In this document: positions 21,030 through 41,569 of the stretch, piece by piece | Layout: every line of letters begins with the position of its first letter | Position numbering within the stretch: the first letter of the stretch is position 1 | IMG/VR virus record: IMGVR_UViG_3300025116_000096 | Span: 1 to 41,569 of that record | Length of the DNA: 41,569 nucleotides | Strand: one strand, 5' to 3' | Origin: a virus | Made by a program: the position numbers and the translations under genes | Notes under the pieces: model-generated | What the model was told of the DNA's origin: nothing | The model's input: the letters and a program-made list of their open reading frames with translations, nothing else | Databases searched by the model: none

Positions 21030-21363
21030 TTTCAGAAACCTGTAGTTTGTTGGATTGGGTTTGCCAGTCGTTACCTGTTTCACTAACCGCTTTACTCTGC
21101 TGTTCGAACTCCAGGTTTAGCTTTGCAACCAGTTCGGCCTGTTTCAGTTGATCAGATAATTCGCCTTCTAAAAAAGAGACTTCAGAAACTAAGCCGTCAA
21201 TGGCGAGTTTTTGATTTGTTATTGTGTTTAGTTGCTGGCTCATGGTTTTTTCCGCATTAATCAGCTGAATGTTCTGGTAGATAGAGAACAAACCAAGCCC
21301 AACTACAGCCACGGCCATTACGTACAGCAAGCCAAGCTTCCAGGTGTTACCAAGCGTCATCAT
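20869..21363 (-). CDS. Rz-like inner-membrane spanin (164 aa)
   Basis: One N-terminal membrane segment (about residues 11-28, LLYVMAVAVVGLGLFSIY) followed by a long periplasmic coiled coil (residues ~30-105, Gln/Leu/Glu heptads) is the Rz layout. The C-terminal ~60 residues are Ser/Ala-rich and lie over the start region of Rz1 in another frame. The start overlaps the endolysin stop in ATCATGATGACG. With Rz1 it forms the spanin complex for the last lysis step. Confidence 0.85.
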   Translation of the reverse strand: MMTLGNTWKLGLLYVMAVAVVGLGLFSIYQNIQLINAEKTMSQQLNTITNQKLAIDGLVSEVSFLEGELSDQLKQAELVAKLNLEFEQQSKAVSETGNDWQTQSNKLQVSENEKTRSWAIADLPDDARQLLFDASRSQNSDSKTASLHSATQESGGRRLSASAI

Positions 21364-21839
21364 GATGTTAAATCCTTAAGGCACACTTTGCGTTCGGCTT
21401 CCCGGCGTGTGCGTAAGCCGGCTAATACTTTTCCATCGGCATAAACCCAACGCATCAGCTCATGGCATGCCTCAATGCGTCGACCAGAATTGAGTTTTAC
21501 CAATGCAGTTGATTGCCTGAACTTGCCGATACCAACGTTGTAAACAAATGACAGGTAAGCAGCATGCTCACCTTCTGAAAGCGAAACCTTGACCACTGAG
21601 CGCAGTTGCCGGTCGTGCTTGTGCAAATCAACAACAAGCTGATCAAGGCACTGCTCCCGCGTAAACGTCTGACCCATTTTCAGCTCTGGACCTGTATGGC
21701 CATAACAGCTGGTCAGTATCCGAGCCGGATCAAGATAAACCCCCAGCACCTCACCCTCACTCGGGATAATCAGCACAGTGGCCGAAAGCGACAAAGCCCC
21801 TACAACACCTAGGGCTGCAAGTTTTTTGCTTATGCTCAC
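21360..21839 (-). CDS. SAR-type endolysin, lysozyme family GH24 (159 aa)
   Basis: Cleaves the glycan backbone of peptidoglycan. The catalytic triad spacing E-x8-D-x5-T is visible: Glu28, Asp37, Thr43, followed by CYGHTG. The N-terminus is a weakly hydrophobic Ala/Gly/Ser-rich segment (about residues 7-25) with no cleavage motif, as in signal-anchor-release endolysins, which reach the periplasm through Sec and become active on leaving the membrane. The start is a GTG at 21839 with GAGGGA upstream; a long upstream in-frame extension to 22172 crosses the LexA box and the divergent gene and is not credible. It is first in the lysis block. Confidence 0.88.
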   Translation of the reverse strand: MSISKKLAALGVVGALSLSATVLIIPSEGEVLGVYLDPARILTSCYGHTGPELKMGQTFTREQCLDQLVVDLHKHDRQLRSVVKVSLSEGEHAAYLSFVYNVGIGKFRQSTALVKLNSGRRIEACHELMRWVYADGKVLAGLRTRREAERKVCLKDLTS

Positions 21840-21861
21840 AAAATATCCCTCAAGTGATACA

Positions 21862-21877
21862 CTGTATTCATATACAG
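21862..21877. promoter_or_regulatory. LexA-binding (SOS) box
   Basis: CTGTATTCATATACAG: the CTG-N10-CAG rule of gammaproteobacterial LexA boxes is met exactly, with the AT-rich centre and flanking ACTGT/ACAGT. It lies 17 bases upstream of the plus-strand ATG at 21894 and 22 bases from the endolysin GTG on the other strand, so it could control either. Its closeness to 21894 favours the plus-strand gene. Confidence 0.82.
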
Positions 21878-21893
21878 TTAAAACAATATTGCT

Positions 21894-22274
21894 ATGCCTA
21901 AAATCCGCAGACGCTATAACTACGGTCACGTAGTAATGAACCCGCACATTGTCGGCGGCACCGTGCTGCTTTGCGGCCAGACTGTCAAAGTTGGAACAAA
22001 AAACGGCGAAGGCCGAAACGTAAAATTCGCTGGATTCATCAAAGCAAGAGACCCAGACGAAATTCACAGCCGGGTAAAGCTTTACGAGATCGAGGCATTC
22101 AGTCATGAAACCGGATTCGGCGGCGACTGGATAAGCTATGGTCGTGAAGTAACCATGCTTGGGCATTACCATCCAGATGATGGTGTTTACCTGGTACTAA
22201 TTGACGGCCAGCCAGTAGCCTGGTGCGAGATATCAAAACCAGCACCAACGACATCAACAACAAAGGATCGGTGA
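21894..22274 (+). CDS. Putative SOS-controlled protein of unknown function (126 aa)
   Basis: Divergent from the lysis operon and preceded by a perfect LexA box. The 126-residue product is soluble, beta-rich, with a basic opening (MPKIRRRYNYG) and two Cys; no HTH, membrane or catalytic motif that I recognise. A weak terminator hairpin follows at 22329. No clear ribosome site is visible before the ATG, so the true start might lie at a later codon. Because the prophage repressor has no autocleavage domain, a LexA-controlled antirepressor (as 186 Tum or Gifsy anti proteins) is an attractive role, but the sequence gives no direct support beyond the SOS box. Confidence 0.65.
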   Translation: MPKIRRRYNYGHVVMNPHIVGGTVLLCGQTVKVGTKNGEGRNVKFAGFIKARDPDEIHSRVKLYEIEAFSHETGFGGDWISYGREVTMLGHYHPDDGVYLVLIDGQPVAWCEISKPAPTTSTTKDR

Positions 22275-22328: not shown

Positions 22329-22346
22329 AAACAGCAAATGCTGTTT
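22329..22346 (+). terminator. Weak terminator-like hairpin after the SOS-controlled gene
   Basis: AAACAGC-AAAT-GCTGTTT, a perfect seven-pair stem, followed by an interrupted T-rich stretch (ATTCCTATTTGTT). It lies 55 bases after the plus-strand stop. The T-run is poor, so termination may be partial. Confidence 0.5.
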
Positions 22347-24605: not shown

Positions 24606-25853
24606 TTAAACCCAGCCTGCACCGTTATTGGTTTGCGTCGATTGCGGATCTAATGACGATCTCGGCGCTATCTCGGCCACACAATTGGCAAAACCTTTTG
24701 CGATGAGGGCTTGGTGATATTCCTCCAAAGCATTGGTCATGCCGGTGTTGAGCTGGCTGTGGACGTAAGTTCGCAGCAGGATTGGCAACGCGTGATTCAG
24801 GATCCGCTCACCAACCATTGTGTCAGTGCCAAGGTCGGCAATTATGGTCCGGCACAGCTTGCGCAAACTATGGCTGGTGAATTCCTTGAACCTGATCCGC
24901 TCGGACCAGTATTGAGCTGTCCGGATGCTGATCACCCCGCTTTCACCCTGGAACAACACAGCGCGTTTGCCTTTAGTTTTTAACTGCCATTGCTTGTAGG
25001 CAAGCAGCAAGCCTTTTGCAGTCTGGGTTAACGGCAATCGATGAGCAGTTCCGCTTTTTGTATTCTCCGCCGGTATTTCCCACCAATCACCGGCAAAGTG
25101 CTCCCACCTGGCCAAGCGAGTTTCATTGATGCGAGTGCCAAACATCAGCATCAGCAAAAAGAACACCCTCACTTGGTGCGGCTGCGTGGCTATCTGCTCG
25201 AACAGCTCTGATAAATCTGATTCCCGCAACTGGGCACCCGCAACGGATGGCAAGCGAATAGACATCTGAACCTGATAACCAGCCAGCGGGTTGCTGGCGA
25301 TGATCCGGAGCGAGGCCGCGGCACCAAATGCCCTTTTGAGCACTTGCACGGCCAGCTTGATGTAATTCGGCGCTAATCCAGCAGCCAGCATTGGTTTAAT
25401 CAGTTTTTCATCAATATCGATGTACTGGATCTCAGAAATAGCAATCAGCGATAAGTACTTGAGCTGTGTTTTTACAATCGACCGACTGTTCTTGCGCCAA
25501 GACAGGCTAATGGTCTGATTCGATTTTATATGGTCGACATACCAGTTCAGCAGCTGGCCAACCGTAACGAACTGCTCACTGGCAGGTTTCTCCTGATCAG
25601 CCAAACGTGCCATCACTGCTGGTAAATCACTCAGCAACGTATCGATACACACCATCGGCCATTGCCCACGCTTTTGCCACAGCGTTTTCCCCTTGCGGTT
25701 GATCACCAAAAACACACTGGCTTTAGTTCGGGCCTGGTTTGCCCGAAGCCGGACATTTGGGTACCGGGCATCGCGAAAATCACGGCAAGCACTGCTGTCC
25801 AGCCAGCGGCGAACTTGCGACTGATTGAACTTGCCGTAATAGGTTTTACTCAT
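24606..25853 (-). CDS. Second tyrosine recombinase, in the replication operon (415 aa)
   Basis: Full tyrosine recombinase with all catalytic residues: Arg241 (FGTRINETRLARW), Lys266 (NTKSGT), His328 and Arg331 (SHSLRK), His354 (LNHAL) and nucleophile Tyr363 (RTYVHS). An N-terminal arm-binding-like part spans residues ~1-90 and a core-binding domain ~95-190. It is not the conventional integrase: that lies at 40331. This gene starts in an ATGA overlap with the P gene, so it is expressed with replication genes. Possible roles are dimer resolution of replicating genomes, excision, or inversion of a distant segment. I see no duplicated att-like sites nearby. Confidence 0.88.
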   Translation of the reverse strand: MSKTYYGKFNQSQVRRWLDSSACRDFRDARYPNVRLRANQARTKASVFLVINRKGKTLWQKRGQWPMVCIDTLLSDLPAVMARLADQEKPASEQFVTVGQLLNWYVDHIKSNQTISLSWRKNSRSIVKTQLKYLSLIAISEIQYIDIDEKLIKPMLAAGLAPNYIKLAVQVLKRAFGAAASLRIIASNPLAGYQVQMSIRLPSVAGAQLRESDLSELFEQIATQPHQVRVFFLLMLMFGTRINETRLARWEHFAGDWWEIPAENTKSGTAHRLPLTQTAKGLLLAYKQWQLKTKGKRAVLFQGESGVISIRTAQYWSERIRFKEFTSHSLRKLCRTIIADLGTDTMVGERILNHALPILLRTYVHSQLNTGMTNALEEYHQALIAKGFANCVAEIAPRSSLDPQSTQTNNGAGWV

Positions 25854-29525: not shown

Positions 29526-29999
29526 ATGAGAACTGGCCAAGTAATCGCACAAAATATTACGGACCTATTAAACTTATCCGGCGAACAATTGAAGTCAGTT
29601 CATGGCAGGGCTGCTGAGAGAGGCATTAACATCAACTATCCGATGATAGCGAAGCTCGGTAGCCTTAAGTCAGAAGCACCAAAAAACCCATCGCTTGAAA
29701 CACTGGATCGGGTCGTTGAAGTTTTAAGGACAATACCAGGGCAGGAAAATTTAGAGCATTGGATGCTTTTAAAGGAAGGATATTTCCGAAGTGGTGATTC
29801 TGCTTCTGGAAATCAGGTAACAGAATCCTTTATGAAAGACTTTGTTGACGAGCTTTTATTCGCAATCACGACAATGAAGATTATTCCTTTAACTGAAGAG
29901 CAGTTCAACAACGTAAAAAATGTAGCTAAGTTCTGTTACATGAAAAAGTTGAACTTAGACAAGCAAGATAACGAAGTGAAAAACGCTAATAGCGCGTGA
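29526..29999 (+). CDS. Putative prophage repressor without peptidase domain (157 aa)
   Basis: N-terminal XRE-like HTH (residues ~5-75: QNITDLLNLSGEQLKSVHGRA, then YPMIAKLGS and PSLETLDRVVEVLRTI), a short linker, then a ~70-residue C-terminal region (FMKDFVDELLFAITTMKI) probably for oligomerisation. There is no S24/LexA-type Ser-Lys autocleavage domain, so RecA-stimulated self-cleavage is not expected. Position, divergence from the cro-position gene and the shared operators identify it as the lysogeny repressor (inference). GAG lies upstream of the ATG. Confidence 0.75.
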   Translation: MRTGQVIAQNITDLLNLSGEQLKSVHGRAAERGININYPMIAKLGSLKSEAPKNPSLETLDRVVEVLRTIPGQENLEHWMLLKEGYFRSGDSASGNQVTESFMKDFVDELLFAITTMKIIPLTEEQFNNVKNVAKFCYMKKLNLDKQDNEVKNANSA

Positions 30000-33101: not shown

Positions 33102-33495
33102 ATGTTTGCAGTGTTCGGTGTTCACCTGGCAAAAGCCCGGTTAAAAGCAGAAAAAACGGTGAAAGCAGCTGAAGCGAAAAAGCAAACAGCTGCGAAGAAA
33201 GCCAAGAAAAATTATCAAGAGTTAACGCCTGAGCAATTCGCTGAAGCGGTTAATACAGAGCTTGAACGGGTAATTGGCCAAACAAAGCCTGTGCGGATCA
33301 GCCCCGAATACAGCGTGCCAGCTGCCGCCGAACACTTTTGCGAAATTGCAAAAAAAACAACCGTTTGCAAACCTGCAGATTTTCATCAAGGCGCCAGAAC
33401 AAACCAAAGACAAGCGAGGCCGCACAAAAGTTGTTGGCCGTTATGTTCATTTTATCCAGGGTAAAGATTACTCGCTCACAGGAGTATCACAATAA
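33102..33495 (+). CDS. Frameshifted gene with an A8 run (about 130 aa if corrected)
   Basis: The frame starting at 33102 (MFAVFGVHLAKARLKAEK, Lys/Ala-rich) ends at 33464 in implausible sequence. The other frame gives a natural C-terminus (ANLQIFIKAPEQTKDKRG, then GRYVHFIQGKDYS) ending at 33495, where the stop overlaps the rdgC ATG as TAATG. The two join at the run of eight A at 33350-33357: with one A less the reading frame is continuous. The cause may be sequencing error, a real mutation, or slippage by polymerase. Function unknown. Confidence 0.6.
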
Positions 33496-34376
33496 TGTGG
33501 TTCAAAAACGCACGCATTTACAAAGTTACTGAGCATCTTTCCGATTTGCATGACGCGGCTTTAGATGATCATAAGTTTACGCCATGCATGGGCCAAGAAG
33601 CCGTAAAAATGGGCTTCACTCACCCTGTGCATGCATCATCGAAATACCTGGTGCACGAGGGTCAAGACGGCTTGTTTGTTGTTGCCGTTAAACGCCAAGA
33701 GAAAATGTTACCAGCCGCGGTTATCAACGAACAGTTGCAGCCAAAAATTGACGCTCTGGAAGCCGAAAAAGGCCGACCACTCGGACGCAAAGAGAAGTCA
33801 GCGCTGCGTGAAGAGTTGATTCAGACATTGCTGCCTCGTGCAATGCCCCGCTCGTCAGTAGTTAGCGTTATCTATGACAGCAAAACCGGCTATTTGATTG
33901 TGGACACCCCAAGCGCTGGCCGTGCTGAAGATTTGCTGTCTCTGCTGCGCAAATCATTGGGTTCGCTGCCTGCTCTGCCATGGACTGACAACAACAAGCT
34001 GAACCTCAATATGCAGGACTGGCTTGCGGGTAAAAATCTGCCAACCGGTTTTGAGCTGGGTAACTCCGTTGAGCTGAAAGCACCGGATGAGGAAGGTGCC
34101 AAGGCCAAGTTCAGCAATCACCTACTTTCATCAGCTGAAGTGCAAAGCCACTTGGAAGACAAGCTGGTCACCAAACTGGAAATGTCACTGCCAAACGCGC
34201 TGAGCTTCACTATTGCCGATGACGGCTCAATCCGCCGCATTCAGTGGAGCGACCTGACAACCAACACCAACGACGAACTTGGCTGGGATGACCTGGTGCT
34301 GCGCGTTGATGCTGATTTGCTGCTGATGATGCAGCAGTTCCGGACTTTGATTGCTGCTGTAGGTGTTGAGTCATGA
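33495..34376 (+). CDS. rdgC: RdgC recombination-associated protein (293 aa)
   Basis: The opening MWFKNARIYKVTEH, then FTPCMGQEAVKMGFTHP and the ring-closing C-terminal half match RdgC, a ring-shaped protein that binds double-stranded DNA and restrains RecA. Length (293) is near the chromosomal family (about 303). Chromosomal rdgC is universal in many gammaproteobacteria, so a prophage copy in an early operon suggests control of recombination during phage replication. Start coupled to the preceding frame; the next gene starts in an ATGA overlap. Confidence 0.9.
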   Translation: MWFKNARIYKVTEHLSDLHDAALDDHKFTPCMGQEAVKMGFTHPVHASSKYLVHEGQDGLFVVAVKRQEKMLPAAVINEQLQPKIDALEAEKGRPLGRKEKSALREELIQTLLPRAMPRSSVVSVIYDSKTGYLIVDTPSAGRAEDLLSLLRKSLGSLPALPWTDNNKLNLNMQDWLAGKNLPTGFELGNSVELKAPDEEGAKAKFSNHLLSSAEVQSHLEDKLVTKLEMSLPNALSFTIADDGSIRRIQWSDLTTNTNDELGWDDLVLRVDADLLLMMQQFRTLIAAVGVES

Positions 34377-35022: not shown

Positions 35023-35216
35023 ATCCAAAGCGCAAAAGCAATACCGGCCTGACACCAGCGCTGGTGCTTAAAGTGAAGTATGGCCACGTTAAGCCGGAAG
35101 AGCTCAAGCCGAACAGCCGTGAAATCGCAATGCGACTGGTAAAGGCTCGGATTATGGAAATCGACCGGCGCGGGTTTCTGCGCCTGATTGATGAAGATGG
35201 AGCGATGGCAGCATGA
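35019..35216 (+). CDS. Small basic protein (65 aa)
   Basis: Basic N-terminus (MNPKRKSNTGLTPALVLKVK) and Arg-rich centre suggest nucleic-acid binding, not proven. The C-terminus (RGFLRLIDEDGAMAA) is acidic. Overlaps with both neighbours (ATGA) place it in the same operon just before the methyltransferase; a role with that enzyme is conceivable. Confidence 0.65.
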   Translation: MNPKRKSNTGLTPALVLKVKYGHVKPEELKPNSREIAMRLVKARIMEIDRRGFLRLIDEDGAMAA

Positions 35217-36130
35217 CAACAGCCATCGATTTATTCGCAGGGTTGGGCGGCTGGTCAACAGGCGCTGCACAGGCAGGTGTTCAGGTTTTGTGGGCAGCTA
35301 ATCACTGGCCAGATGCGGTGCAGTGGCATGCAGCTAACCATCCTGAAACTGAGCACGCCTGCCAAGATTTGCACCAGGCTGATTGGACTAAAGTGCCAAA
35401 ACACGACCTGCTGCTGGCCAGCCCTTGCTGCCAAGGACACAGCAAGGCTCGCGGCAAAGCATCCGGCAATCCACAGCATGACACCAGCCGGTCTACTGCT
35501 TGGGCTGTGGTCTCAGCTGCAGAGTTTCACAAACCGCAGGCGGCCATCATTGAAAACGTGACGGAGTTCACCGACTGGGCGCTTTATCCGGCATGGGCTG
35601 CAGCAATGAATGCGCTGGGGTATCAGCTGGCGCCACACGTTGTTGACTGCGCAGACCTTGGTGTGCCGCAAAACCGCGAGCGGCTATTTATTGTGGCTAC
35701 TCGCAGTAAATCGCCGCTGCACCTCGACCTGCCGAAGTTTGAGCATGTTCCGGCAACAAGCTTTATCGACTTTAGTGCCGGCCGCTGGTCAGCGATTGAA
35801 AAGCATGGCCGGGCAGCGGCAACGCTCGAACGTATTGCGAATGGCCGAGCAATCCATGGTGACCGGTTTGTCATGAGCTATTACGGCAACACCAAAATCG
35901 GCCGTTCACTGCACCGCCCTATCGGCACTATCACAACTCGCGACCGTTGGGCTGTTGTTGACGGTGACCGCATGCGCATGCTGACCGCCGAAGAAAACCT
36001 GTTGGGTATGTCGTTTCCGCGCGATATCAAGCGCCCGGATAATCACAAACTGACGGTTCACATGGCGGGCAATGCAGTGCCGCCATTGGCGGGCCAGCGC
36101 ATCATCGAAGCGCTATTGAAGGCAGCATGA
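35213..36130 (+). CDS. DNA cytosine-C5 methyltransferase (305 aa)
   Basis: Transfers methyl from S-adenosylmethionine to cytosine-C5. Motif I DLFAGLGGWSTG (residues 6-17), catalytic motif IV ASPCCQGHS with Cys73 (position before it is Cys72 instead of the usual Pro), ENV motif at 114-116, motif VIII QNRERLF at 153-159 and motif X GNAVPP near residue 290 are all present. The target-recognition part between VIII and X is short. No restriction gene is next to it, so an orphan enzyme that protects phage DNA is likely. The sequence it methylates cannot be read from here. Confidence 0.92.
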   Translation: MTTAIDLFAGLGGWSTGAAQAGVQVLWAANHWPDAVQWHAANHPETEHACQDLHQADWTKVPKHDLLLASPCCQGHSKARGKASGNPQHDTSRSTAWAVVSAAEFHKPQAAIIENVTEFTDWALYPAWAAAMNALGYQLAPHVVDCADLGVPQNRERLFIVATRSKSPLHLDLPKFEHVPATSFIDFSAGRWSAIEKHGRAAATLERIANGRAIHGDRFVMSYYGNTKIGRSLHRPIGTITTRDRWAVVDGDRMRMLTAEENLLGMSFPRDIKRPDNHKLTVHMAGNAVPPLAGQRIIEALLKAA

Positions 36131-36276: not shown

Positions 36277-36639
36277 ATGGATTTCGAGATGCCTCAGGCC
36301 TTTCATCAAGCAAATCGCTTGTCCAGAAAAGAGCACAAATGCTGCGAGTGCGGGCAAACAATCAGTGCTGGAGAAGTTTACGAGTATTCAAGCGGTGTAT
36401 GGGATGGCAAGCCGGACAGCTTTAAAACTTGCCTTTCATGCGTCGAGATCCGCGACGAGTACACAACATCCACTGGTGAGCCAACAGCCTTTGGTGAGCT
36501 TGGTAGCACCATACATGAAACATTTTGCCGCGGTTTTGGCCCTCGCGAGTATGCCGAGCAATCAGGTATCGCACTGGACCGAATCATGGTGTTTTTCCCT
36601 GACTACTACGCCGACGAATTGGAGGATGACGCAGCATGA
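36277..36639 (+). CDS. CxxC zinc-ribbon protein (120 aa)
   Basis: Two Cys pairs make a likely zinc site: KCCECGQ (Cys22/25) and TCLSCVE (about Cys52/55), with GEVYEYSSG between. The remainder is acidic and helical. I choose ATG 36277, six bases after GGGAG; a GTG one codon earlier is too close. Such small zinc-ribbon proteins are frequent in phage early operons, usually of unknown role. Confidence 0.7.
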   Translation: MDFEMPQAFHQANRLSRKEHKCCECGQTISAGEVYEYSSGVWDGKPDSFKTCLSCVEIRDEYTTSTGEPTAFGELGSTIHETFCRGFGPREYAEQSGIALDRIMVFFPDYYADELEDDAA

Positions 36640-37412
36640 CAAAGAGAATTTCAAACCCGCCACCACCGGTGGGTAATAAGCCCCCCTATAAAGTTATTGG
36701 AGATACTAGGTCGCCGCTCGGGCAACCTCAAGCACCTGAAACAATGATGGTCAACGGTAAGATTGTGACTCAGGACGACTATCGAGCACTGGCGGCGCAG
36801 GTTGAGGCGCTGCGGGAAGAAAACAATCAAATTGTTAATCAGAGAAATGAGCTCTTGGCAACGTGGCATATTACAAAAATTACAGCCTTCAATGTGGTTG
36901 AAGGTGTTATTAAAAATAACGCCAAAAATGTCGATCAGCACTTGTTCGATAATGCCGTAATCTTAAAGTCGCTAATTTATCATGATAATTCACAACAACA
37001 CCTCCGCGAAATCCGCGCCGATGCTGTCCAAGAATATAAAGCAACTAATCCATCTGTTGCAGATCACCTTGTTCGGCAAATCACATTCAGCCTGAAAGCG
37101 TTCGGTCCTGCATTGCGTACCGGCGGCGTTATCGACCATATCCGCAAAGAATTGGTCGAAGTTTCAGAAAATCCACATGATTTATCTGAGTGGATTGATA
37201 TAGCAATGCTGGCTCTGGATGGTGCTTGGCGACACGCAGTCAGGAATGGACGAACTCATGAAGATATCGCACGAGAGGTTGCCGCAGCGCTTCAAGCGAA
37301 GCTTGCCAAAAACGAAAAGCGTACGTGGCCGGATTGGCGATTACTGAGCGAAGACAAAGCCATTGAACATGATAGAACCGGTGAATACGCCGCTAAGGTT
37401 GGTGAAGCGTGA
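36636..37412 (+). CDS. DUF550-domain protein, putative dATP/dGTP pyrophosphohydrolase (258 aa)
   Basis: The C-terminal ~110 residues (from SLKAFGPALRTGGVIDHI through HEDIAREVAAAL) carry the DUF550/MazG-like all-alpha fold; acidic metal ligands are visible in RKELVEVSENP and SEWIDIAML. The family hydrolyses nucleoside triphosphates. The N-terminal ~125 residues are a coiled-coil (EEnn region, LAAQVEALREENNQIV) and a Pro-rich opening, which is additional to the minimal family. It overlaps both neighbours by four bases. Function as dNTP-pool control or starvation-signal removal is inference. Confidence 0.75.
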   Translation: MTKRISNPPPPVGNKPPYKVIGDTRSPLGQPQAPETMMVNGKIVTQDDYRALAAQVEALREENNQIVNQRNELLATWHITKITAFNVVEGVIKNNAKNVDQHLFDNAVILKSLIYHDNSQQHLREIRADAVQEYKATNPSVADHLVRQITFSLKAFGPALRTGGVIDHIRKELVEVSENPHDLSEWIDIAMLALDGAWRHAVRNGRTHEDIAREVAAALQAKLAKNEKRTWPDWRLLSEDKAIEHDRTGEYAAKVGEA

Positions 37413-40330: not shown

Positions 40331-41569
40331 TTAAACGACTTTTAAAGACCTCTTACCTGACATACTCATATTGCCTGTTGCGGCTGATTCAATATGGTCA
40401 CTCCACCACTGCATCAGAACTCGCCGCCGCTCAATGTACTGAGCTCGGTTGTAAGCAATGCGAACCTGATCTTTATCCATGTGCGCCAAAGCAGCTTCGA
40501 TAACATCGTGATCGAAGCCACGTTCGTTTAATGTCGTACTGGCCAGCGCCCTAAATCCATGAGATACCAATCGACCAGCAAAGCCCATACGTTGCAAAGC
40601 CCGGTTGACCGTCTCTGGGCCGCTGGGTTTTGCGATGTTTCTATCGCCAGGGAATATGTATTTACTTGTGCTGCTTATTGGCTTCATGAACTCCAAAATG
40701 GCAAGCGTTTGCTTGGTCAGCGGTACAGAGTGAGCTCGGCGTTTTTTCATCCGCTCCGGACCTATATTCCAGAGCTTATTCTCAAAGTCGATTTCATCCC
40801 ATCGAGCACCGGCCGCTTCACCAGGGCGAACCATTGTGTGTAATTGAAATTCAAGTAAGCAGCGGGTTGTAATGCGTATCTGAGCATAGCTGACAGCAGC
40901 CATTAATTCGGGCAGTTCGTCGGGCTTAATGGTTGGCATGTTTTGCGACTTGGCAGTGACAAAAGCAGCCTTCGCACCAGCCAGCTTGTTAAACTCAAGA
41001 ACGCCAACGTTCACACACCAGTTCATCAACTCGTTCACGCGCTGACAAAGCCTACCGATCAACTCTAATTTTTCACTGGCTTCAAGCGGCTTTAAGGCAT
41101 TAATCAGTATCGGAGCTGTCAGATCATTAATGGGTATCTTACCTATGTCAGGGAAAAGGTGATTCTTGAATGAGTTTTCAATATTGAAAGCATGCCGCGA
41201 ACTTATCTCAGTGAATTTTACTTCAAACCATTTTTTGGCCACAGATTGAAAATCGGTGCTGAGTTCCCGGCGTCGACGGTCTGAATTGTCATCAAGCCAT
41301 TTTTGAGGATCAACGTTCTGCGCCAGCAACTCCCTAAAATCAGAGCGCGACTTTCGGGCAGCCGCCAAACCAGTATCTGGATATGTGCCAATTTTGAGAT
41401 TGTTACGCTTGTTTAGATAAGGCCTTTTGTAACTGAACACCCAAGATTTGGTTCCAGAAACAGCGATCCGCAGCTCTAAACCATCACCATCGTAAAGTGT
41501 AAAAGGTTTGTCCTTTGCCTTTGTATTTCGAACTTCAGTATCGCTCAAAGGCCTTGTTTTTCTTGCCAT
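40331..41569 (-). CDS. int: P4-type integrase (412 aa)
   Basis: Tyrosine recombinase that integrates and excises the prophage. The N-terminal arm-binding domain of the DUF4102 type opens MARKTRPLSDTEVRNTKAKD; catalytic residues are Arg248 (TMVRPGE), a Lys in MKKRRAH, His337/Arg340 (SHGFRA), His363 (LAHMDK) and Tyr373 (IAYNRA). Such integrases usually use a tRNA gene or tmRNA as attB, placed just upstream of int. The start ATG lies at the very last bases of the window, so the att site lies outside. It is the second tyrosine recombinase of this element. Confidence 0.95.
   Translation of the reverse strand: MARKTRPLSDTEVRNTKAKDKPFTLYDGDGLELRIAVSGTKSWVFSYKRPYLNKRNNLKIGTYPDTGLAAARKSRSDFRELLAQNVDPQKWLDDNSDRRRRELSTDFQSVAKKWFEVKFTEISSRHAFNIENSFKNHLFPDIGKIPINDLTAPILINALKPLEASEKLELIGRLCQRVNELMNWCVNVGVLEFNKLAGAKAAFVTAKSQNMPTIKPDELPELMAAVSYAQIRITTRCLLEFQLHTMVRPGEAAGARWDEIDFENKLWNIGPERMKKRRAHSVPLTKQTLAILEFMKPISSTSKYIFPGDRNIAKPSGPETVNRALQRMGFAGRLVSHGFRALASTTLNERGFDHDVIEAALAHMDKDQVRIAYNRAQYIERRRVLMQWWSDHIESAATGNMSMSGKRSLKVV

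Follow-up and report, generated by a model that had tools for sequence, protein, structure and literature searches.

A predicted LexA-controlled small gene family shared by phages, plasmids and chromosomes of Vibrio and its relatives

We analyzed a 41,569-nt stretch of viral DNA (hereafter, the window) and found in it a small gene preceded by a near-perfect LexA (SOS) box, a combination that is kept in podoviruses, 186-like and filamentous phages, plasmids and bacterial chromosomes. Because this box-plus-gene pair recurs in several kinds of phages, on plasmids and on Vibrio chromosomes, the gene is probably no private switch of the window phage; it would instead act on the host, as a damage-response gene that these carriers have in common. 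Retention of the box across such different carriers would mark a DNA-damage process of the host that many elements gain from influencing.

The LexA box in the window, CTGTATTCATATACAG, occupies positions 21862–21877 and is assigned to neither strand. Scored over all 16 positions, it matches CTGTATATATATACAG at 14 of them, and all eight outer bases are correct. It is the only site of this quality in the 41.6-kb window, where 0.0009 such sites are expected from the window's own dinucleotide statistics; the LexA box that the preliminary description had placed before a gene of no recognized function is therefore real. That description relied on an exact CTG-N10-CAG pattern. The pattern is present, but we dropped it as evidence in its own right because it occurs at chance level: the window holds 13 bare instances vs. 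11 expected, and at least 13 were obtained in 30 of 100 shuffles. The spacing between the box and the ATG at 21894 measures 16 bases, instead of the 17 given earlier. In a related phage, L001, the box CTGTATTTATATACAG is found at the equivalent place before its copy of the gene.

The open reading frame that follows the box (21894–22274, plus strand) encodes a protein of 126 residues and is a real gene, since it is conserved in the L001 phage with a dN/dS of 0.13 (78% protein identity, substitutions falling at third positions). The protein belongs to the phrog_15882 family, whose profile it matches over most of its length (E = 2.5e-11, residues 2–114 on positions 2–108 of 125); the same profile is matched by 43 of the 44 collected family members. 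Outside phrog_15882, the window protein has no match in Pfam, NCBIfam, PADLOC or PDB, and searches of the same four collections (PDB by sequence) with the 44 members gave nothing credible either. Proteins of this family are ∼105–130 residues long and have in common the pattern IRxRxNYxxV...IPALLKDG...PFGGFI...VKLV.I...W..IP..HYVVGVY..G.YYVVL..G.P. A structure prediction for the protein alone, which had been suggested as a check, was made with AlphaFold2 and gave an all-beta model (pLDDT 77); a member nearer the family consensus was also modeled as all-beta, with a pLDDT of 88.7 and a pTM of 0.84. Foldseek comparisons of both models with PDB, and of the window protein's model with viral models, returned nothing at E ≤ 0.001, and no fold match in these two collections points to any particular target. 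The top TM-scores are too low to carry meaning, and the tandem-tudor and FABP names in the Foldseek lists were rejected as chance-level. The gene product is thus predicted to be small, soluble and all-beta. Behind the gene, at 22329–22346 (plus strand), lies a terminator-like hairpin, with which the gene would form a unit by itself, though the signal is weak, with two hairpins in the region vs. 0.9 expected in shuffles.

Homologues were gathered by protein profile (phrog_15882 on whole genomes) and by tblastn (plasmids and phages), in both cases blind to the box. A box was called when at least 12 of 16 positions and at least seven of the eight outer bases agreed, within 280 bp around or before the start. 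By this rule, 58 of 67 homologues have an upstream box, vs. 0.008 per 280 bp elsewhere in the same loci, as do 33 of 42 clusters at 70% identity. Thus the homologue search proposed in the preliminary description returned conserved boxes rather than a family that lacks them. When one box per cluster is aligned, the consensus is A-CTGTATATATATACAG-T, with 76–100% agreement at nearly all positions and unconserved flanking bases, so that a palindromic box over the promoter is conserved beyond chance expectation. The box is also at the same place before the plasmid homologues L002 (Alteromonas), L003 and L007 (both Vibrio), whose identity to the window protein is ∼30%. Further phage loci taken from IMG/VR added 44 members, most of them near copies of the 186-like type; the box is present in 43, and the one locus without it is a partial match of 16 residues. 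On these counts, LexA control of the 126-residue gene and its family is well supported, with repression by LexA predicted from the sites.

On the family tree, nine of 73 rows are box-less, and these require only four changes, suggesting that the box is ancestral. LexA control is not universal, as one set of members has no box (L049, L052, L055, L090, L094, L103 and L151–L158). Among them, the L157 gene is flanked by repA and telN on a linear phage-plasmid, and the L151 gene lies beside parAB on large phage contigs; genes of these types may be served by a promoter other than the LexA-boxed one. On the L157/L158 linear phage-plasmid contig, the protelomerase has a copy on either side, in inverted orientation.

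The carriers of the family are diverse. The podoviruses comprise the window phage, L001, L064, L097, L098 and L100, and the latter four have structural proteins in common with the window phage. In 186-like Vibrio phages the family gene stands beside int, with the LexA box between the two. A LexA-boxed member is also carried by filamentous phages that possess Zot, secretin and Rep, by Alteromonas and Vibrio plasmids that show no phage genes around it, and by one syntenic chromosomal neighborhood in 12 genomes of a single Vibrionaceae clade; a plasmid with conjugation genes is among the family carriers as well. No partner or repressor gene is common to all these contexts. According to the tree, window-like Vibrio podoviruses hold members from family clades other than the window's, as expected of an interchangeable accessory gene with a host-directed benefit. 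In L086 the family gene directly follows a gene for a 368-residue XRE-type HTH protein, which by eye resembles an ImmR/ImmA repressor-peptidase. The chromosomal loci L057 and L066 have a neighbor of the DUF6500 kind (72 residues) ∼1.8–2.1 kb after the family gene, with a LexA box CTGTATTTATATACAG.

This distribution describes a sample drawn almost wholly from Vibrionaceae, in which several of the phage and plasmid labels of contigs rest on neighboring genes only. With the window protein as query, no close homologues were found among phage records; its relatives were reached via plasmid matches and the PHROG profile. Two scans of genome contigs for the family gave no member in the first and only Vibrio coralliilyticus in the second. 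A class-wide search found nothing beyond the reference genome, so that in the genomes sampled the family appears to center on Vibrionaceae. A weak, partial and box-less match on an Alteromonas mediterranea plasmid (L006) was left out of the counts.

The window also encodes RdgC, a RecA-filament modulator, at 33495–34376 (plus strand; PF04381, E = 8e-83), and near it a DNA methyltransferase (35213–36130) and a dATP/dGTP pyrophosphohydrolase (36636–37412). Two tyrosine-integrase-like genes are present on the minus strand (24606–25853 and 40331–41569), the first of them following the O and P replication genes. The records of L147 and L149 encode an S24 protein of 136–139 residues, the size of UmuD, beside one of repressor length, and these phages may thus carry a manager of translesion polymerase.

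We propose that the LexA box over the promoter, the single small gene and the single terminator together form a self-contained, horizontally mobile cassette. In a lysogen the gene would be silenced by LexA; upon DNA damage, RecA-driven cleavage of LexA would switch it on directly, ahead of the phage's own repressor, and its product, a small soluble all-beta protein, would act on the host during SOS. Such a protein could be a modulator of SOS, RecA or DNA repair, similar to PsiB, DinI and GIL01 gp7, that shields its carrier or limits the induction of competitors. That the gene is a LexA-repressed one-gene cassette for a host-directed protein of the SOS stage has, in our judgment, about an even chance of being correct. 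As to the target, our guess is that the protein most likely acts on some host component active in SOS and not on a phage repressor, because the boxed gene persists in phages whose repressors are cleavable as well as in those whose repressors are not, in filamentous phages, and on plasmids and chromosomes. Damping of SOS or RecA is the single likeliest role, although, as a guess made by analogy, it has a rather low probability in itself. More broadly, we consider it possible, if only tentatively, that phrog_15882 is an unrecognized LexA-wired family of proteins of mobile elements, with a fold absent from PDB, by which all these phages and plasmids and some chromosomes bend the host response to DNA damage, for example as a novel kind of SOS or RecA modulator common to elements that are otherwise unrelated.

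The antirepressor role suggested in the preliminary description assumes that SOS induces the 126-residue protein, which then binds a non-cleavable repressor and starts the lytic program. The putative repressor gene (29526–29999, plus strand) owes its name to where it lies, divergent to the leftward early genes, and to a reading of its sequence by eye; its product is 92% identical in the L001 phage and has no match in Pfam, PHROG or PDB. No Peptidase_S24 domain was found anywhere in the window or in the L001 record, so the earlier statement that the repressor lacks a cleavage domain now holds for the whole window record. In the window phage an antirepressor can still be argued for, because no S24 domain is present and the window has no good LexA box other than the one before this gene. 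Between the two phages, the repressor (92% identity) and the 126-residue protein (78%) are both conserved, and antirepressors capable of acting against several repressors are known from some phages (PMC3121763). Among the family members, though, the conserved box is accompanied by quite different immunity systems. An S24 repressor gene lies 8 kb from the boxed gene in L064, 4 kb in L097, 7.6 kb in L098 and 14 kb in L100, distances that suggest the same prophage in each case; HTH and Peptidase_S24 domains were confirmed for the repressors of L064, L097 and L098. The records of three other boxed members (L146, L147 and L149) encode S24 proteins of repressor length too, and boxed members outside phages are found on plasmids and chromosomes, besides those in filamentous phages. 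Two 186-like phages, L106 and L077, whose CI is annotated as 186-type, have a second LexA-boxed gene after the replication genes: a small phrog_5581 gene in L106 (L106:25605-25826, minus strand, box at 25849) and, in L077, a boxed gene for a similar protein ∼4.15 kb after the family gene. This second gene occupies the place that tum has in phage 186, and is the better antirepressor candidate for these two phages. Furthermore, sequence comparison in Pfam, NCBIfam and PDB relates none of the 44 members to DinI or to any known antirepressor, and 11 carrier records gave no DinI match. A further argument comes from a Vibrio linear phage-plasmid, Vibrio 1F-97 phage 63, in which the repA–telN segment is reported to be expressed without lysis (PMC10432266); the family member L157 occupies this segment in another such phage, and the main text of that paper does not state whether the phage 63 gene belongs to the family. 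Hence, of the antirepressor proposal, the conservation of the LexA box in homologues stands, whereas antirepression as the function of the family is unsupported; as a role confined to the window phage, with the repressor at 29526–29999 as target, it is unlikely.

Another possibility raised earlier was that the box times lysis through the divergent endolysin gene. Here LexA would repress the lysozyme and lysis operon leftwards from 21842, SOS would time or license lysis, and the 126-residue gene would be a bystander. The phage lysozyme gene (21360–21842, minus strand; PF00959) indeed starts ∼20 bp from the box, in the window as well as in L001, and in 186-like phages the box likewise adjoins the start of int. 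But no box was found within 400 bp of the lysozyme homologues in L064, L097 or L100. The small gene, by contrast, retains its box whether its neighbor is int, phrog_34963 or no divergent gene at all, and in the plasmid copy L002 the box lies between co-oriented genes. As the box stays with the small gene among differing neighbors and does not follow the lysozyme, control of lysis is weakened as an explanation and we regard it as very improbable. Separately, L098, L100 and L092 have a divergent phrog_34963 gene (∼220–245 residues) just before the family gene with a common LexA box region, and the phrog_34963 homologue in L064 has a weaker box of its own, CTGTATAAATATACAC. The distribution that points to a host-directed cassette could also reflect an SOS-induced growth effector, which, like SulA and the prophage division inhibitors, blocks host division or replication and holds the cell for phage or plasmid production. 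The presence of a single gene with no antitoxin-like partner agrees with this; but homology to any known inhibitor is lacking, and upkeep of the gene at one syntenic place on the chromosomes of 12 genomes is explained at least as well by a benefit to the host, leaving growth inhibition with a small probability.

The family also carries a caution, namely that not every LexA-boxed prophage gene is an antirepressor. Since the family proteins are small, soluble by prediction and easily tested, they pose a direct question about the action of mobile elements on SOS in Vibrio and its marine relatives.

The gene resembles 186 tum, the Gifsy genes gfoA, gfhA and gftA, and N15 antC in being a small LexA-boxed prophage gene outside the immunity region of a phage whose repressor has no S24 domain; Tum, GfoA and AntC are small and LexA-controlled (PMC3121763). 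In contrast to Tum, GfoA, GfhA, GftA and AntC, its product has neither a sequence or profile match to them nor a DinI half, and, unlike the Tum, Gfo and AntC antirepressors, the family has members in filamentous phages, plasmids and chromosomes as well as alongside cleavable repressors. It is also similar to unfA and unfB, LexA-bound Vibrio genes whose mutants are reported to be UV-sensitive (PMC3323433, PMC5963079), in being a Vibrio SOS-type gene of unassigned role, although unfA is described there as a putative helicase. We found no description of the mobile phrog_15882 family in the main texts of these two papers, and the PHROG entry itself is a computed cluster with no function, in which the LexA box is unmentioned. 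Other parallels are the SOS modulators of mobile elements, PsiB of F-type plasmids, GIL01 gp7, RamA and RamT of ICEBs1, and DinI, as described in PMC11841131 and PMC4551915. No sequence match relates the family to these proteins, and the 44 members gave no Pfam match to PsiB or DinI; a similar activity on RecA or LexA is proposed by analogy. PsiB and RamA/RamT are reported to be under zygotic or element control, whereas the phrog_15882 family is under predicted LexA control. Like all of them, the family consists of small proteins that are encoded on unrelated mobile elements and tied to the DNA-damage response of the host.
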